A stretch of 64,000 nucleotides of DNA. It comes from Cyanobium sp. WAJ14-Wanaka (GTDB taxonomy: Bacteria; Cyanobacteriota; Cyanobacteriia; PCC-6307; Cyanobiaceae). Below are positions 18,785-28,531 of the stretch, piece after piece; within the stretch, counting starts at the first letter, position 1, and each line of letters starts with the position of its first letter. The notes beneath the pieces were generated by a model, which was not told where the DNA came from, did no database searches, and was given only the letters and a program-made list of their open reading frames with translations. The stretch lies in the NCBI RefSeq assembly GCF_024345375.1, contig NZ_JAGQAZ010000001.1, positions 682,001 through 746,000 of the forward strand, written 5' to 3'. The translations under genes were made by a program, and so were the position numbers.

Positions 18785-19747
18785 TCAGGCTTCTGGCCGA
18801 ACGGTCGCAAAGATTTCCTCCAGTATCTCGCCCGCACCCTGGGCCCGCAGGGCCTCGGCGAGGGCAATGCCAATGGCCTCAGGGTCCTGCTGGGGGCCGC
18901 GTCTCACATCCCGAATCAGCCGTAGGCCATCAAGGCTGGCAACCATGCCGGTGAGCACCAACTCGGCCTGCTCAGCCTCCCCCTCAAAGCAGCTGTTGAC
19001 CCCAATCGGAACCTGGCAGCCACCCTCCAGCTGACGCAAAAAGGCCCGTTCAGCCAAGCAACGCCGTGCCGTAGGTAAGTGCTCTAACACCTTGATTTGG
19101 GCCAGAACTGCCTCGTCGCCCTCCCGGCACTCAATGCCCAGGGCCCCCTGACCGACAGCATGCAGGGAAATGGAAGGGTCAATTAATTCATGGATCCGAT
19201 CGGCCAGGCCGAGGCGACCCAGGCCCGCTGCAGCCAAAATCAAACAGTCGAATTCACCGGAATCCAGCTTCTCCAGGCGGGTGATCACGTTGCCCCGCAC
19301 GTCCTTGAAGGTGAGGTGGGGATAGTGGTGGCGCAGCTGGGCCAACCGCCTCAGGGAGCTGGTGCCAACCACCGCCCCCTCGGGCAGGGTCGCCAGGCTT
19401 TTATCGCTGTGCCTGGCATGGACCACAAGCGCATCGGCAGGATCCTCCCTCTCTGTGATGCAACCGAGCATCAAGCCATCCGGGAGGTTGGTGGGCAGGT
19501 CCTTGAGGCTATGGACGGCGATGTCGGCCTGGTCCACCAACATCTGAGCCTCCAATTCCTTGGTGAATAGGCCCTTGTCGCCAATTTTGGCCAGGGCAAC
19601 ATCGAGAATTTTGTCGCCCTGGGTAGCCATCGCCTCGATGCTGATCTCCAGGCCCTGGTGGGCCTGGAGGAGTTCATCGCGCACCCAATGGGTCTGCACC
19701 ATGGCCAGCTGGCTGCGGCGGGAGGCGATGCGCAGGGTATTGGCCAT
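18785..19747 (-). CDS. hemC: Porphobilinogen deaminase (hydroxymethylbilane synthase)
   Basis: HemC joins four porphobilinogens into hydroxymethylbilane in tetrapyrrole synthesis. The 320-residue protein is full length. It starts with the typical [14 protein letters not shown], has the substrate-binding [12 protein letters not shown] and [17 protein letters not shown] blocks, and carries the cysteine (Cys244 in [10 protein letters not shown]) that holds the dipyrromethane cofactor. It sits upstream of the CLC gene on the same strand, with a 67-nt spacer. Confidence 0.97.
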
Positions 19748-19830: not shown

Positions 19831-20238
19831 TCAGGCGAAAAAATTGAGCGGCAAGGGGCCCCAGGTGGCATCGCCATCCGGCTCGCTCGAGTCCTGGCCG
19901 GAAATGAGAATGCCCTCCCCAAGGCCATCTTCAGGGCGGATCAAATAGGAGCCAGTGTTTTGGTTCGCCTTGAGGAAAACGGGTCCGCCTGGAACTGGAT
20001 TAGCGGATTCAGAAGGAGCAGGCTCGAGGCGCGTCCAACCGAGCCGTTGCTCCATCGCCCTCAAGGAATCCACCGCCAAATCGGCAGAGGGAGCCATGAT
20101 CCCGGCCGTAAACCAGGCGCAACGGGCCATGACGGCCGCCAGCTCCAGGGCCAACTGCTCAGCCTGGCCAGTGCCGAGCTCGGGGGCCGTGCGAAGCACC
20201 CTCAAATCAGCAAGGGTTAGGGAGGTGGAATTCGCCAT
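19831..20238 (-). CDS. DUF1824 family protein
   Basis: This 135-residue soluble protein fits the DUF1824 family of cyanobacteria and plants, which has a structure but no assigned function. The pattern recognised is an N-terminal helical part starting SLTLADLRVL, followed by GPVFLKANQNTGSYL and the ending GEGILISGQDSSEPDG...GPLPLNFF. It is upstream of hemC on the same strand (83-nt gap) and divergent from the GT2 gene that begins the AT-rich island. Confidence 0.75.
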   Translation of the reverse strand: MANSTSLTLADLRVLRTAPELGTGQAEQLALELAAVMARCAWFTAGIMAPSADLAVDSLRAMEQRLGWTRLEPAPSESANPVPGGPVFLKANQNTGSYLIRPEDGLGEGILISGQDSSEPDGDATWGPLPLNFFA

Positions 20239-20329
20239 TATTTAAGTCAAAGCTCAACGCCACCTAGCATCACCTCCAGCAGGTCAAACGCAAACCCTGG
20301 AAGATCCAGCCTCCACACCACAGATCTGG

Positions 20330-21298
20330 GTGGTTTCTGCCTGTTTCAACGAAGCGCAAGGTATTGCTTCTTTTATCGAGGCGGTCCGTTCCCAGGGTTG
20401 TATCAACAGATTGGTATTGGTAGACGACGGTTCTAAGGACCAAAGCGCGGCGATCGTCAGGCAACAGATTGCGGCAGATAAACAGGCAGGCCAAGGCATC
20501 AATTGCCAAATCAGCCTCATCTCCCTAACCCGAAACTTCGGCAAGGAGGCGGCAATGCTGGCCGGCCTCGACTTTGCCAAAGGCAGGTGCGATGCAGCAG
20601 TTCTCATGGACTCAGACCTGCAACATCCGCCAGAACTTCTGGTTGAAATGGTGGCGGCCTTCCAGGCTGGGGCAGAAATAGTTACGGCAATCCGGCGCGA
20701 TCGTCAGGGAGAATCGGGGATTAAGGCCACCAGTGCCCATTGGTTTTACTCACTGTTTAACCACCTGGTCGATTCGATTCAACTGGTGGATGGGGCGGGC
20801 GATTACCGACTGCTGAGTGGGGCAGCCCTGAATTCCCTTACCCAGCTAAGGGAGGGGGGTAGGTTCTCAAAGGGGCTATTCCCCTGGATTGGCTTTGAAA
20901 ATGTAGACGTTTACTATGCCTGTCCAACTAGAGGTAGTGGCCAAACATCCTGGAATTTATCCAGTCTCTGGAACTATGCCCTTGATGGCATTTTTGGCTT
21001 TTCACTGGTCCCCCTGAAGGTCTGGTCAGGAATAGGTGCATTTATTTCAGCCTCAAGCGTGCTCTACTCGATCTACTTTGCAATCCACACGCTGCTCTAC
21101 GGCATAGACGTGGCAGGCTTTCCAAGCCTGATTGTAGCAATTACATTTTTGGGCGGTATTCAACTGATTGGCATTGGCATCCTTGGGGAGTACATCGGCC
21201 GCATCTTTCTGGAGGTCAAAACTCGACCAAACTATTTAGTCAGGGCAGTTGATGGCAGCGTCCCGAAGAAGTCTAGAAAGATTAAGAAACAGTTCTAG
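20330..21298 (+). CDS. GT2 polyprenyl-phosphate glycosyltransferase (DPM1/GtrB-like)
   Basis: This is a GT-A fold enzyme expected to move a sugar from a nucleotide to polyprenyl phosphate at the inner face of the plasma membrane. Seen are the VDDGSKD nucleotide site, DSDLQHP (DxD-like metal site) and two C-terminal membrane segments (about 230-252 and 265-290), the usual GtrB/ArnC-type layout in 322 aa. The GTG at 20330 falls inside the first beta strand (VVSACFNEAQG). The frame is open upstream to 20246 with only a CTG (20297) as a further start, so the N-terminus is uncertain. It converges on the GtrA-YdjC gene. Base composition is AT-richer than the flanks. Confidence 0.85.
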   Translation: MVSACFNEAQGIASFIEAVRSQGCINRLVLVDDGSKDQSAAIVRQQIAADKQAGQGINCQISLISLTRNFGKEAAMLAGLDFAKGRCDAAVLMDSDLQHPPELLVEMVAAFQAGAEIVTAIRRDRQGESGIKATSAHWFYSLFNHLVDSIQLVDGAGDYRLLSGAALNSLTQLREGGRFSKGLFPWIGFENVDVYYACPTRGSGQTSWNLSSLWNYALDGIFGFSLVPLKVWSGIGAFISASSVLYSIYFAIHTLLYGIDVAGFPSLIVAITFLGGIQLIGIGILGEYIGRIFLEVKTRPNYLVRAVDGSVPKKSRKIKKQF

Positions 21299-21320
21299 TC
21301 ACGTAAGCCAAATTCCCAAC

Positions 21321-22604
21321 TCATTTACGGATTAAACAGGCCAGCGACTCGAACTCCCTCTGGCGCCAAGGTGAAGCATAAAACCTACGAGACAGGTGGT
21401 AACTGGGATCTATCACCTCGAGGTTTGAGGGACGATCCACATCAATAAAGGCCGGGTGAACTAGCAACAGGGAAGGGGTAGAAGCAGACGAAACTGAAAC
21501 CTGCCTAAGTTTTATGAGGCAGGCAGCAAGAGGAGCTCCGGCCATGCGGCCAGTGAATAGGACTCCTGAAAAAGACCCATTGGTAGAGATCTGCTCGTAA
21601 GCCAAAACAGGTGTAATGACGCTATTCAAGTATTTCAAAACTAAGCTCTTAACAACGCCGCCATGGCCTAGGGCCGAAAGCCAGAATCTGTAGGCCAATC
21701 CTGGCGGCCATGGTTCATTAATAGTGCGGATCCAAGTTGGTCGCATCGATGGAGGAAGCCTAAGCAATTGACGCCAGACAATTGGCAACAAATGCACGTG
21801 TTGGTGACCATCAAGGGAGAAAGAGGTCTTGCCAGTTAATTGCTTATATTTAGAAATCTGGGCCTGAATTTCAATGCCGATTTGCTGGAAAAGCCGGCGC
21901 GATCTGGAAAGGGGCAGAACGGAAGCCATTAATAAAAAACCAAAACCCAAACGTAGGTTTCCCTTACCATCAACTAAATCGGGGATGAGGTGGACAGGGG
22001 CAGTTGGGGGACCCTCCGTAAGCACAAGGTGAAGGGCCAATTCCATTTGGGGACGCCTACGCCAACCTGCTAGGGCATGCTCAAGAGCAGGGGCGGACAC
22101 CATCAGGCTGGCACTATCAAGTTGGTGGCGATCAAACAGCTCAAAAATTGCTTCGTTGACAAATTTTGCCAGGCCTAGATCATCAGCATGGAAACGCACG
22201 GGCAAGACAAAATCAGGCTCAGGCGAAGAATGTAGACGAGCCGTATGGCGAGCCGCAGAATTCCAAACCAGGTAATTTACAACTGTTGGGGTCAATACCA
22301 ACAGGACCGTTGCAGTCAGTGATCGGGCAAATGCCCCTAAAGCAATTGGCAAAAGAAGGCTAAGAACTACGTTAACTATCAACTGCAGTGCGAGCCAAGG
22401 CCTGGGGAAAAGACGACCACCGGTTTGCTTCTTAAAGCTAAATCTGGAGTGAGCAACAAAACTCCAGATTGAAGCTGATAGCAAAGCCAGCAGGTTGGCC
22501 AGCAGCAAATAAAAACCCAATCCCGAAAGAGCTAATAATATAAACGCATGCAGTAGAGCGGCAAGCACGCCCACCAATCCATATTTCCCCAGGTCTGCAA
22601 ACAT
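21321..22604 (-). CDS. GtrA flippase-like domain fused to YdjC/ChbG deacetylase
   Basis: The 427-residue protein joins two families. Residues 1-120 are a GtrA-like domain with four membrane segments (start MFADLGKYGLVGVLAALLHA, then FSFKK after the second hairpin), thought to help flip polyprenyl-linked sugars. Residues about 133-427 are a YdjC/ChbG carbohydrate deacetylase: HADDLGL (His139, Asp141, Asp142), LALHLVLTEG (His192) and DGHQHVHLLP (Asp265 to His271) supply the metal and catalytic residues. ATG 22604 is 4 nt after the stop of the GT39 gene; the longer frame to 22784 would overlap it. Removal of an acetyl group from a lipid-linked amino sugar is inferred. Confidence 0.85.
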   Translation of the reverse strand: MFADLGKYGLVGVLAALLHAFILLALSGLGFYLLLANLLALLSASIWSFVAHSRFSFKKQTGGRLFPRPWLALQLIVNVVLSLLLPIALGAFARSLTATVLLVLTPTVVNYLVWNSAARHTARLHSSPEPDFVLPVRFHADDLGLAKFVNEAIFELFDRHQLDSASLMVSAPALEHALAGWRRRPQMELALHLVLTEGPPTAPVHLIPDLVDGKGNLRLGFGFLLMASVLPLSRSRRLFQQIGIEIQAQISKYKQLTGKTSFSLDGHQHVHLLPIVWRQLLRLPPSMRPTWIRTINEPWPPGLAYRFWLSALGHGGVVKSLVLKYLNSVITPVLAYEQISTNGSFSGVLFTGRMAGAPLAACLIKLRQVSVSSASTPSLLLVHPAFIDVDRPSNLEVIDPSYHLSRRFYASPWRQREFESLACLIRK

Positions 22605-22608
22605 GGGC

Positions 22609-24129
22609 TTAAGTCTTAGCTGAAGCAATACTTTCGCGATACAGGGAATAACGGCGAAAATCCTTGATCCTGTCAAACTTACCAACAAATTCCGAACTCT
22701 GAAGGAGGGATTGATCACCACGTCCCAATGCCAGATACAAACGACCAGGCTGATCAAGCTGGGCCGTAAGTTGTTGCTTGTCAAAAACGGAAACCACCCT
22801 ATCCCTACTGTAAAATCCAGCCGAAAATGGATATTGATCCCAGTAAACCAAACGGGATCCAGGTTGACTTAATCGTGAATATACATTAACTAGTGATCGT
22901 TGTGATTTACGCTCACCGTAACCTGTCAACGGGAAAACAAGCATGAATAGTAAAGAGCCGATCAATATGATTCTCAAGCCGAGGGTAAGCAGCCGATCAA
23001 CCCTTGCAGGATCAAAGCGGACAAGATAGTAACCACCTAGCAAGGCCAACGCCGGGATGCCTGGCAATACATAGGGCATGATGATATTCCTAGAAAAAGT
23101 AAAAAATACAGCAGGTGCTAAGCCCCAACAAAGCAAATAGTTTCTCCAGCCGTCGTCGCCCGCAACAGCAAATGGAGCTTGAAGCTGGGAGATTGGGAAA
23201 CTCAATCTGCGATTACGGTAGAACAGAAAAAGAGGAAGCAGGATTGTCCAAGGGATGAGCATGTAAATCAAATATATCCATATAGTTCCATGGGCATGAT
23301 GATGGGCATTGCCATACAAGTCCCCATTCCAGCCTGGGACTAGGAAGCGATTGATATGCTCCCCAATCAAAAAGTAATTTAGAAAGCCAGGGGTCTTAGC
23401 CTCGGCTGCCCAATACCAGGGAGCTGCAACCAAAAGACTAAGTAGGGGACCTCTGATCCAGGGCAATCTAACTACAGCAGGGAAAAATGATCGATTGAAA
23501 AGTAGCCAGGCACCTATGGCAAGAAAGGCAAGTACTATGGCCAGGGGTCCCTTTGCCAATAAACCCCAACCCAAGCTAACAAAAAATAACCAAATAACAC
23601 CACCGCTTCGAGGATACTCAGAAGCAGATTGGACACTCAACCAAAAGCTCCACATTGATACAACTAGCCCAAGGGTTAGGGCCATGTCGGTCATTACTGC
23701 ACCAGAAGCAAAATAATAAATCAAACATCCACTTAACAAGGAGATAGCTATGACGGCCTCTCGTTTTGAGCGACGAATGCCAAGATCCCAGACAAACCAA
23801 CCACCAATTATCCCCAGAATCCAATGGGGAAAGCGGGCAGTAAACTCGTTAGCACCGAATAACTTAAAGCTAATGACGGTAGCCCAAAATGACAACGGTG
23901 GCTTACCCCAGAATGGAACACCAGGCCGAAACCACGGGGTTATCCAATCATTCTTATCGGCCATAATTTGAGCAATGTCGGCATAGCGAGCTTCAGTGGT
24001 ATCCATAAGGGGATATGTAGCCAACATTGCCAACCTCACCATGGCAATGGCCGCCACTAGGGCCAAAAGGGGATTGCCGTGGATCCAACTCCTCAATGCA
24101 ATTAGTTTCCAGTCCAGCATTGTTTTCAT
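22609..24129 (-). CDS. GT39/ArnT-like glycosyltransferase
   Basis: This integral-membrane glycosyltransferase of the PMT/ArnT superfamily has 506 residues and about 11-12 hydrophobic segments. The first periplasmic loop has the acidic motif DTTEARYADIAQIM (Asp43, Glu46), followed by WITPWFRPGVPFWGKPP, the pattern of ArnT-type enzymes that use polyprenyl-phosphate sugars as donor on the periplasmic side. The acceptor is unknown; lipid A, another lipid or a protein are all possible. It is the third of four cotranscribed island genes (35 nt after the previous, 4 nt before the next). Confidence 0.88.
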   Translation of the reverse strand: MKTMLDWKLIALRSWIHGNPLLALVAAIAMVRLAMLATYPLMDTTEARYADIAQIMADKNDWITPWFRPGVPFWGKPPLSFWATVISFKLFGANEFTARFPHWILGIIGGWFVWDLGIRRSKREAVIAISLLSGCLIYYFASGAVMTDMALTLGLVVSMWSFWLSVQSASEYPRSGGVIWLFFVSLGWGLLAKGPLAIVLAFLAIGAWLLFNRSFFPAVVRLPWIRGPLLSLLVAAPWYWAAEAKTPGFLNYFLIGEHINRFLVPGWNGDLYGNAHHHAHGTIWIYLIYMLIPWTILLPLFLFYRNRRLSFPISQLQAPFAVAGDDGWRNYLLCWGLAPAVFFTFSRNIIMPYVLPGIPALALLGGYYLVRFDPARVDRLLTLGLRIILIGSLLFMLVFPLTGYGERKSQRSLVNVYSRLSQPGSRLVYWDQYPFSAGFYSRDRVVSVFDKQQLTAQLDQPGRLYLALGRGDQSLLQSSEFVGKFDRIKDFRRYSLYRESIASAKT

Positions 24130-24164
24130 GCTACGAAAAAATGATTATTAAATAATGATCAGTC

Positions 24165-26000
24165 CTAGTGCTTAAAAAATACTTGCAGGGGGCATCTGAT
24201 CAGTAAATGTGAACTTCGTCGGGCGATGAGACTACAGGTCTCTCCGTATAAGGAGATTGAATAGGGGTAAGCCAAGGAATTAAGGCCAAACCCCTCACCA
24301 GAAAAGCCAAATTCCTTCAACTCCCTACCGGTGCCCAAAACTAAAACTGACTGATCACTGTTAATAGATCTACTATCAAACTCCGGTTCGTTTTTCAAGG
24401 CGGCCTGCTTACCAATATAAGCCTCAAAAACCTGATCAGACTTTCGCACAAATAAAGCGCTTCTATTCGAATAAAAAATGGAACTATAGCGCTTGAAACC
24501 AACAACAACAATGGGTTGATCTGGTGCTGAAATATCACCAGCAATACGGGCAAGTTCACGCACTGGCTTAAGGCGTTCTCGATCGACTATTGGAGAAACT
24601 AAAGGTAGGGAAAAGGTAATGGCAGATAGCAGCACGACTGCGTTTGGAACCCAAATAAACGGAAGACGACCTGGCCTTATCGAGAGAAATATTATTGCGC
24701 CCGAGAGTAGGGCGAGGTAAATGCTGATTGCAACAGGGTTCAGAGCGCTAAGAAGCGCCCGATTAAAATTGGGGAAATCAGGAATGGGACGTAGAAATCG
24801 CGGCAGTAGGACAATCGCCAATGAAGAAACAGCCAATAGGCCAGAGTTGATCCAGCCGGTAATTACCAGGCCTCTGCCAAATGGACGATCGGGTTGAAAT
24901 GGCTGAAACAGGAGAGAAACCGTCAATGCACCAGCCGGTAGAACTGGCAATATGTAGCCGGGGAGCTTAGTTGAAGCTAAAGAAAAGAAAAGAAAGATCA
25001 ATGTTATCCAAAGCACAGCAAACAATGCAACATCGCTTTCCGATCTATTTTGCCTCCATTCGCTGAGCTGCCAAAAGCGAAGCCTGACCAGTGCGACCGG
25101 CAAAAACAGGGACCATGGCAACATCAATAAAAGCAACCAAGGCAAATAGAACCATGGTGGTCCTGGGTGAGAATAAAGAACAGACGTGAAGCGCTGAAAA
25201 TTACTATATCCAATAAAACGTTGTAAAAACTCCCACCCATTTGCCTGGGTAGCCGCCACATACCAAGGCAGTGTTACCCCAAGGAAGAGGGAAACCAACG
25301 GAATCCAAGGAGTAGCGCGAATCTCAGAGAAAAGTTGACCTTTTAGAAACAAAAAACCAATGATTACTAAACCTGGCAGCAACAGGCCCACGGGCCCCTT
25401 TGCCATCACTGCAATGCCGCAAAATAATGCCAAGGTGACATGACCGATTTTTCGCTGGTTCAGGCAAGATCCAGCTAAGTAGGCCAGAAGAAAGCCCAAC
25501 AGAGCCAGGGAAATGGCACTTGCAAGAAACATATCTGTAACTGAAGCCCTGGCCCAACCAATCCAACCCGGTGAAAGGGCAAGCAAGGTGCCTGCCAAGG
25601 TTGCTCTGCCAACGCGATTGCGACTCGACTCCTCCCGGGATCCCAACCTCAAGACAACCCCAAAAAGGGCCAAAACCGTGACCGTGGCTGATAAGGCTGT
25701 TGGACACCTAGCCGCCCATTCCGTCACACCAAATACACGAAAGCTGAGGGCAACCATCCAGTAGCCCCAGACTGGGTAGTCGAAAAAGGTTTCGCCATTC
25801 CATCTGGGGGTGATCCAGTCTCCAGAGAGCAGCATTTGTCGAGGAATCTCAACAAATAAACCCTCAGTTTTATCCATCAAGCCCAAGCTTCCCAGCTGGT
25901 TCCAAAAGACCAAGATGCATAAACCAAGCAAAGCCAAAAAGCCAGCTAGTGCAGGTCGACGTCCTTCAACCTCACACCATTTACCGAGAGAATTGATCAT
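24165..26000 (-). CDS. GT39/ArnT-like glycosyltransferase, second copy
   Basis: This second PMT/ArnT-like membrane enzyme has 611 residues from ATG 26000 (MINSLGKWCE), 7 nt after the previous gene's stop. The frame runs to 26063, but that would overlap the upstream gene. The catalytic-loop motif is MDKTEGLFVEIPRQML (Asp43, Glu46), followed by GDWITPRWNGE. There are about 12 membrane segments and a soluble C-terminal part with a conserved-looking VVVGFKRYSSIFYSNR segment. It is clearly diverged from its neighbour, so the pair likely differ in donor or acceptor. Base composition is AT-rich. Confidence 0.88.
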   Translation of the reverse strand: MINSLGKWCEVEGRRPALAGFLALLGLCILVFWNQLGSLGLMDKTEGLFVEIPRQMLLSGDWITPRWNGETFFDYPVWGYWMVALSFRVFGVTEWAARCPTALSATVTVLALFGVVLRLGSREESSRNRVGRATLAGTLLALSPGWIGWARASVTDMFLASAISLALLGFLLAYLAGSCLNQRKIGHVTLALFCGIAVMAKGPVGLLLPGLVIIGFLFLKGQLFSEIRATPWIPLVSLFLGVTLPWYVAATQANGWEFLQRFIGYSNFQRFTSVLYSHPGPPWFYLPWLLLLMLPWSLFLPVALVRLRFWQLSEWRQNRSESDVALFAVLWITLIFLFFSLASTKLPGYILPVLPAGALTVSLLFQPFQPDRPFGRGLVITGWINSGLLAVSSLAIVLLPRFLRPIPDFPNFNRALLSALNPVAISIYLALLSGAIIFLSIRPGRLPFIWVPNAVVLLSAITFSLPLVSPIVDRERLKPVRELARIAGDISAPDQPIVVVGFKRYSSIFYSNRSALFVRKSDQVFEAYIGKQAALKNEPEFDSRSINSDQSVLVLGTGRELKEFGFSGEGFGLNSLAYPYSISLYGETCSLIARRSSHLLIRCPLQVFFKH

Positions 26001-26007
26001 GGACTTC

Positions 26008-27153
26008 CTAGGGGGTGTTCCAAACAAACCGGCTAGAAGCGGCATAATTCCAAACGAACACAACTAATATCCCTGCCATTTGAGCTCCAACCAGATCACT
26101 AGAAACAAATCGATGGAATGCAGAAGCAACCCCAACATTCGCAACTACGGGCAGGGAAGCCACCAGCAGAAACTTAATTAAGCCACGAACTAAGCCAAGC
26201 CCCTTAAGCCTCTGAAATCTAAAGGTCAATGCATTGTTTACAAGGTAATTCGAGGTGGCTGCTGTAATAACAGCCCATGGCAAAGCGTTCTCGAATGCGA
26301 TGCGCTGATAAAGCATTAATAGCTGGGTAACCATTAATTGAACCACCACCCCGCTTGCTCCTACAATCGCAAAACTTATGGCCCTTCTTGGCAGGATTCG
26401 AAAACTAAGGCTATGCAAAATTGAAATCAAAAAGTCCCAGAAGATTGCCAAATCTAATTTTGAACTGCCATAGTGACGCGGCTGAAAAGTTAAGGGGACA
26501 TCTCTCACGCGCAGGCTGCCCCTGCTAACGGCCAATAGCTCATAGAGGAACTTGAACCCGTTGACATCAACTCCCCTGATCAGGCCCATGACCCTATTCA
26601 GGTGAAGGGTAAAAAATCCGCTCATGGGATCCGTGAGGTTCCCATAGACATCGGGCAGGCTGAATCTGGCAGTGGCATTTGCCCAATTAGAGCCAAATTC
26701 TCTTCTAGAACTAAGCCCATGTAATTGGGCATCGAGGTGAAAACGACTTCCAATTACAACATCAAGATCATCATCTAGGAGTTTTTCCAGAGCTTCGTGG
26801 ACTGCTGATGGATCATGTTGCCCATCACTATCCATTACCACCGCCAGCTCTCCGGTGGAATCGAGTAGGCCTTCCTTGATTGCACTTGCCAGGCCAGAGC
26901 GTCCAACTCGCCGAATCAACCTAATTTCGGGTATTTGCCTAGAAAGGCTGCAAACAAGCTCAGCGGTGCCGTCTGAAGAGTCGTCGTCAACGACTAGTAT
27001 CTCCAAATCAAACTTATCGGACAAACTTAGCAGCGGCATAATCACAGCTTCGATATTGCCGCGCTCATTAAAGGTTGGCAGCACAACAGAAACTCGCCTA
27101 AGCAGATTCCTCTGCCCAGGCGAATGTTCTGTGATTTGCGGTGCCCTATTCAC
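26008..27153 (-). CDS. GT2 dolichol-phosphate-mannose-synthase-like enzyme fused to GtrA
   Basis: The N-terminal 250 residues form a GT2 domain: VVLPTFNERGNIE, VVDDDSSDGT, MDSDGQHDP and GSRFH. The C-terminal 130 residues are a GtrA-like four-helix membrane domain ending in WNYAASSRFVW. The combination resembles fused DPM1-GtrA proteins that make a polyprenyl-phosphate sugar and help it cross the membrane. The start is GTG 27153, only 19 nt after the rpoD stop on the same strand, with no terminator between. It is the first gene of the four-gene island operon. Confidence 0.9.
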   Translation of the reverse strand: MNRAPQITEHSPGQRNLLRRVSVVLPTFNERGNIEAVIMPLLSLSDKFDLEILVVDDDSSDGTAELVCSLSRQIPEIRLIRRVGRSGLASAIKEGLLDSTGELAVVMDSDGQHDPSAVHEALEKLLDDDLDVVIGSRFHLDAQLHGLSSRREFGSNWANATARFSLPDVYGNLTDPMSGFFTLHLNRVMGLIRGVDVNGFKFLYELLAVSRGSLRVRDVPLTFQPRHYGSSKLDLAIFWDFLISILHSLSFRILPRRAISFAIVGASGVVVQLMVTQLLMLYQRIAFENALPWAVITAATSNYLVNNALTFRFQRLKGLGLVRGLIKFLLVASLPVVANVGVASAFHRFVSSDLVGAQMAGILVVFVWNYAASSRFVWNTP

Positions 27154-27172
27154 CGTTTCTAACCTAACCTTC

Positions 27173-28531
27173 CTACTTGATGTATTCCTTCAGTACGCCG
27201 TTGCGGTTGGGGTGGCGAAGCTTACGCAGGGCTTTGGCTTCAATTTGACGAATGCGCTCACGGGTCACATCAAAGATTTGACCGATCTCTTCTAGGGTCT
27301 TCATGCGGCCATCATCAAGGCCATAGCGAAGACGCAGCACATCCCTCTCCCTTGGGCTAAGGGTGGCGAGTACCCCTTCAAGATCTTCACGCAGCAGGTT
27401 CTTGGCCACGTCCTGCTCGGGATTCTCTATGTCGGCCTCAATGAAGTCACCTAGGCGAGAATCTTCCTCCTTGCCGATCGGAGTTTCCAAGGAAATCGGC
27501 AGCTGGGCAGACTTGGCAATGAAGCGCAGCTTCTCGATGGTCATCTCCATCGACTCTGCAATCTCCTCCTCTGTGGGCTTGCGGCCAAATTCCTGGGAGA
27601 GGGTCTTGGTGGTCTTTTTGATGCGCGAGATCGTTTCGTATAGGTGAACCGGCAGCCTGATGGTGCGGCTTTGATCGGCGATGGCCCGGGTAATGGCCTG
27701 ACGGATCCACCAGGTGGCATAAGTGGAGAACTTGTAGCCCTTTTCGTGGTCGAATTTTTCTGCGGCCCGGATCAGGCCCAGGCTGCCCTCCTGGATTAGG
27801 TCCTGGAAGGACAGGCCACGGTTCATGTACTTCTTGGCGATCGAGACCACCAGGCGGAGGTTCGATTGGACCATCTTTTCCTTGGCCCTGCGCCCCAGCA
27901 TCAGGCGACGCCGGAACTTGATATTGGTCATCTCAACAAGGGCAGCCCACTCCTTGTTGTCAGGCAGATGGCCATGGTCCACTTCAAATTGCGCGGCCAG
28001 CTCCTCTAGGTGCAGTAGGTCGGCAATTTTGCGGGCCAGTTCAATTTCCTCATCCGCCCTTAGCAGGCGAATACGGCCAATTTCCTGGAGGTAAACCCGA
28101 ATTGAATCCTCGGTGTAGACCCCTTTAGGTCCCACCTTGATGCTCGCCAAGGCCTTCGCCGCCTTGTCGTCCACCTCAGCGGTGTCCTCAAACTCAGCCT
28201 CTGCCGCATCCACATTTGGCTGGACGGCAGCTGCCACCAGGCCCGCTGCTGCCGCATCTAGATCGGCCTTAGGGGCAGCGACTTTTTTAGCTGCAGGTTT
28301 TTTGGCCGCGGGCTTTTTGGCCGCGGGCTTTTTGACAGCAGGCTTTTTGACAGTGGCTTTTTTAGCCGCAGGCTTCTTGGCGGCAGGCTTTTTAGCCACG
28401 CCATCAGCAACGGATGTATCGGGTGCTTCGAGCACCTCACCAGTGGCGGATTTAACTAACAAAGCTTCAGGCGTCGCCAATTTGGCTTTGGACTTAGCAG
28501 CAGTAGCAGGGGTTGCAGCAGCAGGGCTCAT
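27173..28531 (-). CDS. rpoD: Principal-type RNA polymerase sigma factor
   Basis: This group 1/RpoD-like sigma-70 factor of 452 residues directs RNA polymerase to -10/-35 promoters. Region 1.2 ([16 protein letters not shown]), region 2 ([23 protein letters not shown] and [13 protein letters not shown]) and region 4 ([32 protein letters not shown]) are complete. The first about 90 residues are unusual: a histone H1-like run of KKPAAKK-type repeats at 47-88, then an acidic patch. It starts at ATG 28531. Whether it is the main or an alternative housekeeping sigma cannot be settled from one window, but the region 1.2 to 4 sequence is of the SigA type. Confidence 0.93.
28268..28393. repeat. Lys-Pro-Ala repeat tract in rpoD
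   Basis: This tract encodes residues 47-88 of the sigma factor as repeated KKPAAKK, KKPAVKK and KKATVKK units. The DNA repeat unit is short and in frame, so length variation between strains is expected. Confidence 0.8.

Follow-up and report, generated by a model that had tools for sequence, protein, structure and literature searches.

A GtrA-YdjC fusion protein and two separable transmembrane glycosylation units predicted at a variable genomic site in Cyanobium

The window analyzed here is a 64,000-nucleotide stretch of the genome of Cyanobium sp. WAJ14-Wanaka (contig NZ_JAGQAZ010000001.1, forward-strand positions 682,001 to 746,000). Five open reading frames, one rightward and four leftward, occupy positions 20246-27153 of this stretch, flanked by DUF1824-hemC and rpoD. 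A preliminary description had assigned to these genes two family 2 glycosyltransferases (GT2), one of them joined to a GtrA domain, two ArnT-like transferases, and a GtrA domain joined to a YdjC-type deacetylase, and had read them as one lipid-linked amino-sugar pathway. All five frames are present and a Pfam scan confirmed every domain named; as argued below, the genes very likely belong to two units, here called A and B, of which unit A carries the deacetylase. The guanine plus cytosine (GC) content of the block is 47-52%, versus 64% and 61% in the adjoining 2-kb steps, and Rfam and tRNA scans of the window gave no match. The genes are as follows.

20246..21298, plus strand: GT2a (unit A), a polyprenyl-phosphate sugar synthase resembling GtrB, PgfS, and ArnC; a GTG at 20330 is an alternative start
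21321..22604, minus strand: GtrA-YdjC fusion (unit A), 427 amino acids, with a YdjC deacetylase domain after four predicted membrane helices; its 3' end faces that of GT2a across a 22-bp gap
22609..24129, minus strand: PMT1 (unit A), a GT-C, ArnT-like transferase with the motif MDTTEARYADI
24165..26063, minus strand: PMT2 (unit B), a GT-C, ArnT-like transferase with the motif MDKTEGLFVEI
26008..27153, minus strand: GT2b-GtrA (unit B), a GT2 fused to a GtrA domain

The fusion protein carries the GtrA_DPMS_TM (8.2e-09) and YdjC (8.1e-37) domains of Pfam in one frame. The ATG at 22604, which gives 427 amino acids, is the better start of this frame, since a start at the TTG at 22784 would mean a 176-base overlap with PMT1. 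In the AlphaFold model (predicted local distance difference test score, pLDDT, 86.4) four long helices are followed by a separate domain, and the six PDB matches of the model at E <= 0.001 are all chains of YdjC-family deacetylases (8jqe, 8jqf, 7vi8, 2i5i). The residues D141, D142, H192, D265, H267, H269, H271, and H383 (427-amino-acid numbering) do not vary among the 13 fusions aligned; by alignment with ChbG-type chains they correspond to the presumed metal and catalytic positions. The alignment of the fusions, which might have revealed missing ligands, thus bore out the earlier claim that they are intact. The domain is accordingly a predicted YdjC-family deacetylase of the sort expected in NaxD/Lgm-type modification. 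All 13 of these fusions have a net charge of +2 to +5 in the loop that connects membrane helices 2 and 3. Under the positive-inside rule the YdjC domain would then be cytosolic, presumably on the same face where such GT2 enzymes work. PF04138 (GtrA) exceeded its cut-off in both fusion proteins, GtrA-YdjC and GT2b-GtrA, as expected of GtrA-family putative flippases. What is new here is a cyanobacterial protein predicted to join a putative flippase and a deacetylase within a transmembrane glycosylation system. In the open-licence literature we found no publication linking GtrA, YdjC, and deacetylase, and only unrelated ones, as judged by title and the start of the abstract, on YdjC in cyanobacteria.

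GT2a (Glycos_transf_2, 5.9e-23) has the Synechocystis GtrB, sll0501, as its best PDB match (6.7e-77), ArnC being matched at 8.4e-29; its residues 24-334 align with residues 25-328 of GtrB, the membrane part of the latter included. It is thereby predicted to be a membrane-linked polyprenyl-phosphate glycosyltransferase of the GT-A fold, as found in multi-component transmembrane glycosylation systems. Against the NCBIfam PgfS model it scores 261 bits (cut-off 500).

The occurrence of GT2a and the fusion was surveyed in 201 genomes, drawn from a larger group and some only 53% complete, of the family to which Prochlorococcus, Synechococcus RCC307, and the genus of the window belong (G and L numbers below denote genomes and loci). 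YdjC is present in 46 of them, representing 22 of 59 genera. It stands alone in G005 (298 amino acids), and the remaining 45 were counted as fusions: both domains were checked in one frame in G000, in 29 of 30 family loci (the thirtieth being that of G005), in G064, and in G147, and the others were counted from open frames of 416-724 amino acids, except for the stop-broken copy of G120. Relatives of GT2a above 360 bits occur in 45 genomes, of which 44 also have a fused YdjC (stop-broken in G120); the next best score, 283 bits, is found in genomes without YdjC. Among the fusion genomes only G052 has no such GT2a, a divergent GT2 (122 bits) taking the same place, and G131 keeps GT2a plus a 144-amino-acid GtrA frame with no YdjC there. 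The Fisher p of this co-occurrence is 4e-42, kinship being ignored. GT2a and the fusion lie within 200 bp of each other in 44 of 45 pairs (1,244 bp in G197). Wherever a locus row holds both genes, 57 rows in total with some genomes counted twice, their orientation is convergent and the gap is between -79 and +22 bases. In the GT2a tree (52 rows, 46 after removal of exact duplicates) the fusion-linked rows other than that of G052 are set apart, along with the G131 row, from all the rest by a branch with 99/99 support; the G052 row has a very long branch and its placement is unsure. The distances of GT2a and the fusion are moderately correlated (r 0.63, 38 loci), which says little. GT2a and GtrA-YdjC are a conserved core with near-obligate pairing, carried, among others, by Vulcanococcus, Prochlorococcus MIT 0701, and Synechococcus RCC307.

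Two side observations concern this pair. The convergent 3' ends of its genes (window 20246-22604) might serve for antisense control. Some natural variants are predicted to be without the deacetylation step, namely GtrA without YdjC at L174:4775-5206 and L225:524-973 (G131 and G542), and broken YdjC at L044:7989-9107, where GtrA is kept, and at G120:C3:91117-91759.

PMT1 (PMT 1.2e-15, PMT_2 2e-15 in Pfam) and PMT2 (PMT 1.2e-07, PMT_2 3.4e-10) each have ArnT, 5ezm, as the sole PDB match (4e-20 and 9.9e-40, respectively), and both are predicted to be catalytic transferases of the GT-C type used in multi-component transmembrane glycosylation; GT2b-GtrA combines Glycos_transf_2 (4.2e-27) with GtrA (5.6e-18). 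The earlier designation of the PMTs as ArnT-like is upheld as regards homology, but they fall far under the cut-off of the ArnT equivalog NF009784 (122.6 bits for PMT1 and 158.7 bits for PMT2; cut-off 567 bits). Similarly, the ArnC equivalog NF007986, with a cut-off of 529 bits, gives 113.4 bits for GT2a and 42.1 bits for GT2b. No ArnD-type deformylase and no ArnE/F are present in the locus, which has YdjC and GtrA in their place (the rest of the genome was not searched for ArnA, ArnB, ArnD, or ArnE/F). On these grounds strict membership in the Arn system was rejected.

The five genes occupy a site that is variable within the genus. Its two boundaries, and the gene beyond the left one, are as follows.

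18785-19747: hemC, beyond DUF1824; named from sequence, without a family scan
19831..20238, minus strand: DUF1824 (PF08854, 7.3e-28), left boundary of the variable site
27173..28531, minus strand: rpoD-type sigma factor, right boundary of the variable site; named from sequence, without a family scan

The site was surveyed in 16 genomes of the genus with DUF1824 as the anchor, the rpoD frame also being used as a query. It is empty in 11 of them, where DUF1824 abuts rpoD, and occupied in G000, G539, G540, G541, and G542. All five genes are found in G541, in the order of the window, and only PMT1, GtrA-YdjC, and GT2a are found at this site in G540, without PMT2 and GT2b-GtrA. In G539 the contig end falls within the fusion; in G542 a piece of PMT1 at a contig end lies beside GtrA without YdjC, with no GT2a there, and YdjC was not found anywhere in this genome, which is 88% complete. 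The PMT1 homologues next to the pair at the same site in G540 and G541 score 666 and 679 bits; the best other match in the 201-genome sample, which excludes G539-G542, is a PMT2-type protein with 82.2 bits.

Relatives of PMT2 (510-686 bits) were found at nine loci in three other genera. GT2b-GtrA adjoins PMT2 at six of the nine; five are beside rpoD and two beside DUF1824, making six in all at the site, as seen in stretches of about 4 kb. The GC content of PMT2 is about 46-48% in the genus (window 24165-26063 and L223:4426-6198), compared with 65-74% in the five copies measured from other genera, which suggests that the copy of the window has been replaced or has drifted. Each unit thus occurs at the site without the other: unit B is housed there in other genera, and unit A is a second, independent occupant; the two units have been separately gained or lost. 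We consider it very likely that the locus combines two multi-component transmembrane glycosylation systems sharing one variable site. The mere presence of a PMT gene is uninformative about the module, because PF13231 (PMT_2) is present in 193 of the 201 family genomes. The junction between rpoD and DUF1824-hemC (window 20239-27172) may also be noted in its own right as a variable site for envelope-sugar genes, being either empty or filled with unit A, with PMT2 with or without GT2b-GtrA, or with all five genes.

A different candidate partner of the pair is the DUF2079 family (PF09852), present in 43 of the 45 fusion genomes versus 62 of the 156 others (odds ratio 33, Fisher p 2e-12, again ignoring kinship). 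The two fusion genomes without it are G000, which has PMT1, and G019, which is 65% complete. DUF2079 genes adjoin the GT2a/GtrA-YdjC pair in L032, L036, L037, L039, L042, L043, and L176-L178, and GT2a-like genes without YdjC in L179-L182; in the stretch read of other carriers, e.g. L033, L034, L035, L040, L041, and L045, they were not beside the pair. These data suggest that DUF2079 is the usual partner of the pair, replaced by PMT1 in the window. Pfam places DUF2079 in the GT-C clan. Its identity as a GT-C transferase was not borne out by the model (pLDDT 48), by the profile comparison with the PMTs (probability 0.6%), or by the PDB search, which gave no convincing relative, and no publications on DUF2079 were found in the open-licence literature. 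The co-occurrence offers a hypothesis for the function of this family.

In a sample of the whole phylum YdjC was found in 176 of 386 genomes. Among the matches listed, the frames outside the family are 185-365 amino acids long, bar one of 403 amino acids (G439), and, that frame aside, they are too short to be GtrA fusions. We also examined 66 non-cyanobacterial loci, chosen by similarity to the query and partly used to seed the profiles, so that the fractions describe this set only. By the search used, none of the 66 has a GtrA-YdjC fusion, and whole-genome searches in 28 cases gave only matches beginning at profile position 116 or later, outside the GtrA half. The grouping of functions, in contrast, is nothing special: a GT2a-like gene lies within 2.5 kb of YdjC in 49 of the loci, GtrA within 6 kb in 35 (six of them scoring near 20 bits), and seven have a PMT-like gene. 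When candidates from these loci were re-checked with Pfam, GtrA was confirmed in five of five cases and GT2 in three of three. The GT2 and YdjC genes of the proteobacterial loci are co-directional or divergent, never convergent as in the window. In the deltaproteobacterial locus L108 (L108:1649-5015), a 598-amino-acid GT2-YdjC fusion is followed by a PMT_2 gene passing Pfam; YdjC being fused to a putative flippase in one case and to a synthase in another points to one pathway. Phage or plasmid spread of the GtrA-YdjC fusion was not found, the matches being partial: none of the six phage and 49 plasmid records that match covers over 80% of the query, all six phage records and the best 15 of the 49 plasmid records cover the YdjC part only, and two IMG/VR contigs match residues 139-274 only.

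From the domains and their partners, the following chemistry seems reasonably likely for unit A. GT2a would transfer N-acetylhexosamine from a nucleotide to polyprenyl phosphate at the cytosolic face, where the YdjC half of the fusion, judging by its fold, ligands, and partners, would remove the acetyl group; the GtrA half would flip the resulting cationic amino-sugar lipid, and PMT1, at the periplasmic face, would hand the sugar over to an acceptor in the envelope. The probable outcome of the fusion-bearing unit is a cell surface that carries amino sugars with a positive charge. Unit B, in which no deacetylase was seen, would use GT2b-GtrA and PMT2 to flip and transfer another sugar independently. 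The chain from GT2 through deacetylase and flippase to an ArnT-like transferase, proposed in the preliminary description, can be retained for unit A, given the conserved pairing, the independent GT2-YdjC fusion beside a PMT gene, and the unfused proteobacterial sets of GtrA, GT2, and YdjC, a few of them with a GT-C-like gene, but not for all five genes. A bolder proposal, offered tentatively, is that GtrA-YdjC is a deacetylase-flippase in one protein, which would couple N-deacetylation of polyprenyl-phosphate N-acetylhexosamine to translocation and let no sugar but the cationic one into the periplasm; in 45 of the 201 family genomes, amino sugars would by this means be placed on an envelope that is largely free of phosphate and without 3-deoxy-D-manno-oct-2-ulosonic acid (Kdo), the final transferase in most carriers being a DUF2079 protein and not an ArnT-like one.

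Several observations weigh against this scheme for unit A. Beyond the genus PMT1 stands outside the conserved pair, the relatives fetched adjoining DUF2079 genes, an unrelated PMT, or no transferase that could be seen. The convergent orientation of GT2a and GtrA-YdjC is odd for genes that work together. YdjC is missing or broken, with GtrA kept, in L044, G131, and G542, so that deacetylation would be dispensable somewhere. In both PMTs MDxTE replaces the PDEGRY motif of ArnT, with Thr at the position of the ArnT Asp and an Asp two residues earlier. Two of the seven PMT-like genes of the non-cyanobacterial loci were re-checked with Pfam, one giving no match (L084) and the other a sub-threshold one (L105). 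Finally, phage regions with the annotation bactoprenol glucosyl transferase share about 41% identity with GT2a, whose closest solved relative, the Synechocystis GtrB (sll0501), has been shown to make undecaprenyl-phosphate (Und-P) glucose; the GT2 itself therefore gives no pointer to an N-acetyl donor, for which the deacetylase argues and the homology of GT2a does not.

The last point is the starting place of an alternative in which the lipid made by GT2a and flipped by GtrA is Und-P-glucose, from which PMT1 glucosylates an envelope glycan, while YdjC acts on another acetylated substrate. We regard this as unlikely in spite of the match to sll0501, since a separate substrate for YdjC agrees poorly with the fusion, the near-obligate pairing in the family, the like neighbourhoods outside cyanobacteria, and the GT2-YdjC fusion. 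Integration of all five genes into one ArnC-ArnD-flippase-ArnT-like pathway ending on lipid A, as first proposed, might be suggested by their position together in one AT-rich block and by their order being kept in G541, but it is quite improbable given that G540 has unit A without PMT2 and GT2b-GtrA, that three other genera hold PMT2, mostly with GT2b-GtrA, at or beside the site without unit A, and that the Arn equivalog cut-offs are not reached. The occurrence of the genes separately in relatives, named from the outset as evidence that would count against a single pathway, is half borne out: PMT2 and GT2b do turn up on their own, whereas GT2a and GtrA-YdjC are almost never parted.

Two further alternatives concern the YdjC half. 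A membrane-anchored deacetylase of the ChbG type, serving the catabolism of chitooligosaccharides, would fit the fold match to ChbG 7vi8 and the 63.6 bits obtained with the chitin disaccharide deacetylase model NF002559; it is very unlikely in view of the fusion with GtrA and the link to a polyprenyl-phosphate GT2, and ChbG identity was rejected because the cut-off of that model, 227, is not reached. Hardly any weight can be given to a hopanoid side-chain glucosamine pathway with an HpnK-type deacetylase. HpnK (TIGR03473) is the best NCBIfam match of the YdjC half, but at 103.7 bits it is under the cut-off of 232.6, and the hopene cyclase TIGR01507 matches none of the 45 fusion genomes, G000 included; HpnK identity was rejected for both reasons. 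Of the 201 family genomes two match TIGR01507, and only G005 does so above the cut-off. As a separate observation, the stand-alone YdjC of G005 (L002:1462-2355) passes the HpnK cut-off with 274.4, so this genome may represent a hopanoid producer among these cyanobacteria.

If unit A indeed deacetylates, flips, and transfers an amino sugar, some very abundant phototrophs would make their surface less negative by a route described for the lipid A of pathogens. This would matter for the adsorption of phages to picocyanobacteria, for grazing on them, and for their resistance to peptides. Natural comparisons are available within one genus, where units have been gained and lost. A testable question is whether GtrA flippases have headgroup selectivity, as a predicted headgroup-remodelling enzyme is here part of the same protein.

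Among known systems, FlmF2 and FlmK go with the deacetylase NaxD, the YdjC protein of that system being free-standing, and LgmA, LgmB, and LgmC of Bordetella comprise a GT2, a YdjC-family deacetylase, and a GT39 enzyme. Unit A resembles the NaxD system of Francisella and Acinetobacter in having a YdjC deacetylase, a GT2, and an ArnT-like transferase. According to a review (PMC11279074), NaxD deacetylates Und-P-N-acetylgalactosamine and its reported target is lipid A; in the window YdjC is linked to a GT2 of the polyprenyl-phosphate type, and an Und-P-N-acetylhexosamine substrate and the acceptor are putative. The Lgm genes (PMC4993483) form a three-gene route ending in free glucosamine on the envelope, as is predicted for unit A, and this glucosamine substitutes lipid A phosphates. 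NaxD/Lgm-like chemistry is thus plausible for unit A by analogy. Lipid A is a possible acceptor, although a doubtful one: the lipopolysaccharide of Synechococcus WH8102 and CC9311 is described (PMC4515613) as being without Kdo, heptose, and lipid A phosphate and having one galacturonic acid on lipid A, so that the phosphate used in Bordetella is reported absent in these two strains.

The pathway for 4-amino-4-deoxy-L-arabinose (Arn) shares with the locus the logic of a GT2, deacylation, flipping, and PMT-type transfer, and PMT1 and PMT2 are homologous to ArnT; in contrast, the deacetylase of the window is of the YdjC family, the flippase is GtrA, and the equivalog cut-offs are not reached. Six proteobacterial loci (L082, L084, L090, L104, L105, and L109) cluster the same four kinds of genes, GtrA, GT-C-like, GT2, and YdjC, but as separate genes, with GT2 and YdjC divergent (most other loci being co-directional); the GT-C call is weak by Pfam in the two that were re-checked (L084 and L105). 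By analogy, the best-fitting known kind is that of the multi-component (three-component) transmembrane glycosylation systems, such as CsbB/GtcA/YfhO, in which, as outlined in PMC8035078, a membrane-linked GT-A enzyme charges polyprenyl phosphate and is accompanied by a GtrA-family flippase, itself called putative there, and a GT-C transferase. A search of that review gave no deacetylase-related term. The locus differs from these systems in being cyanobacterial, with a putative acceptor, and in having a YdjC deacetylase fused to the putative flippase.

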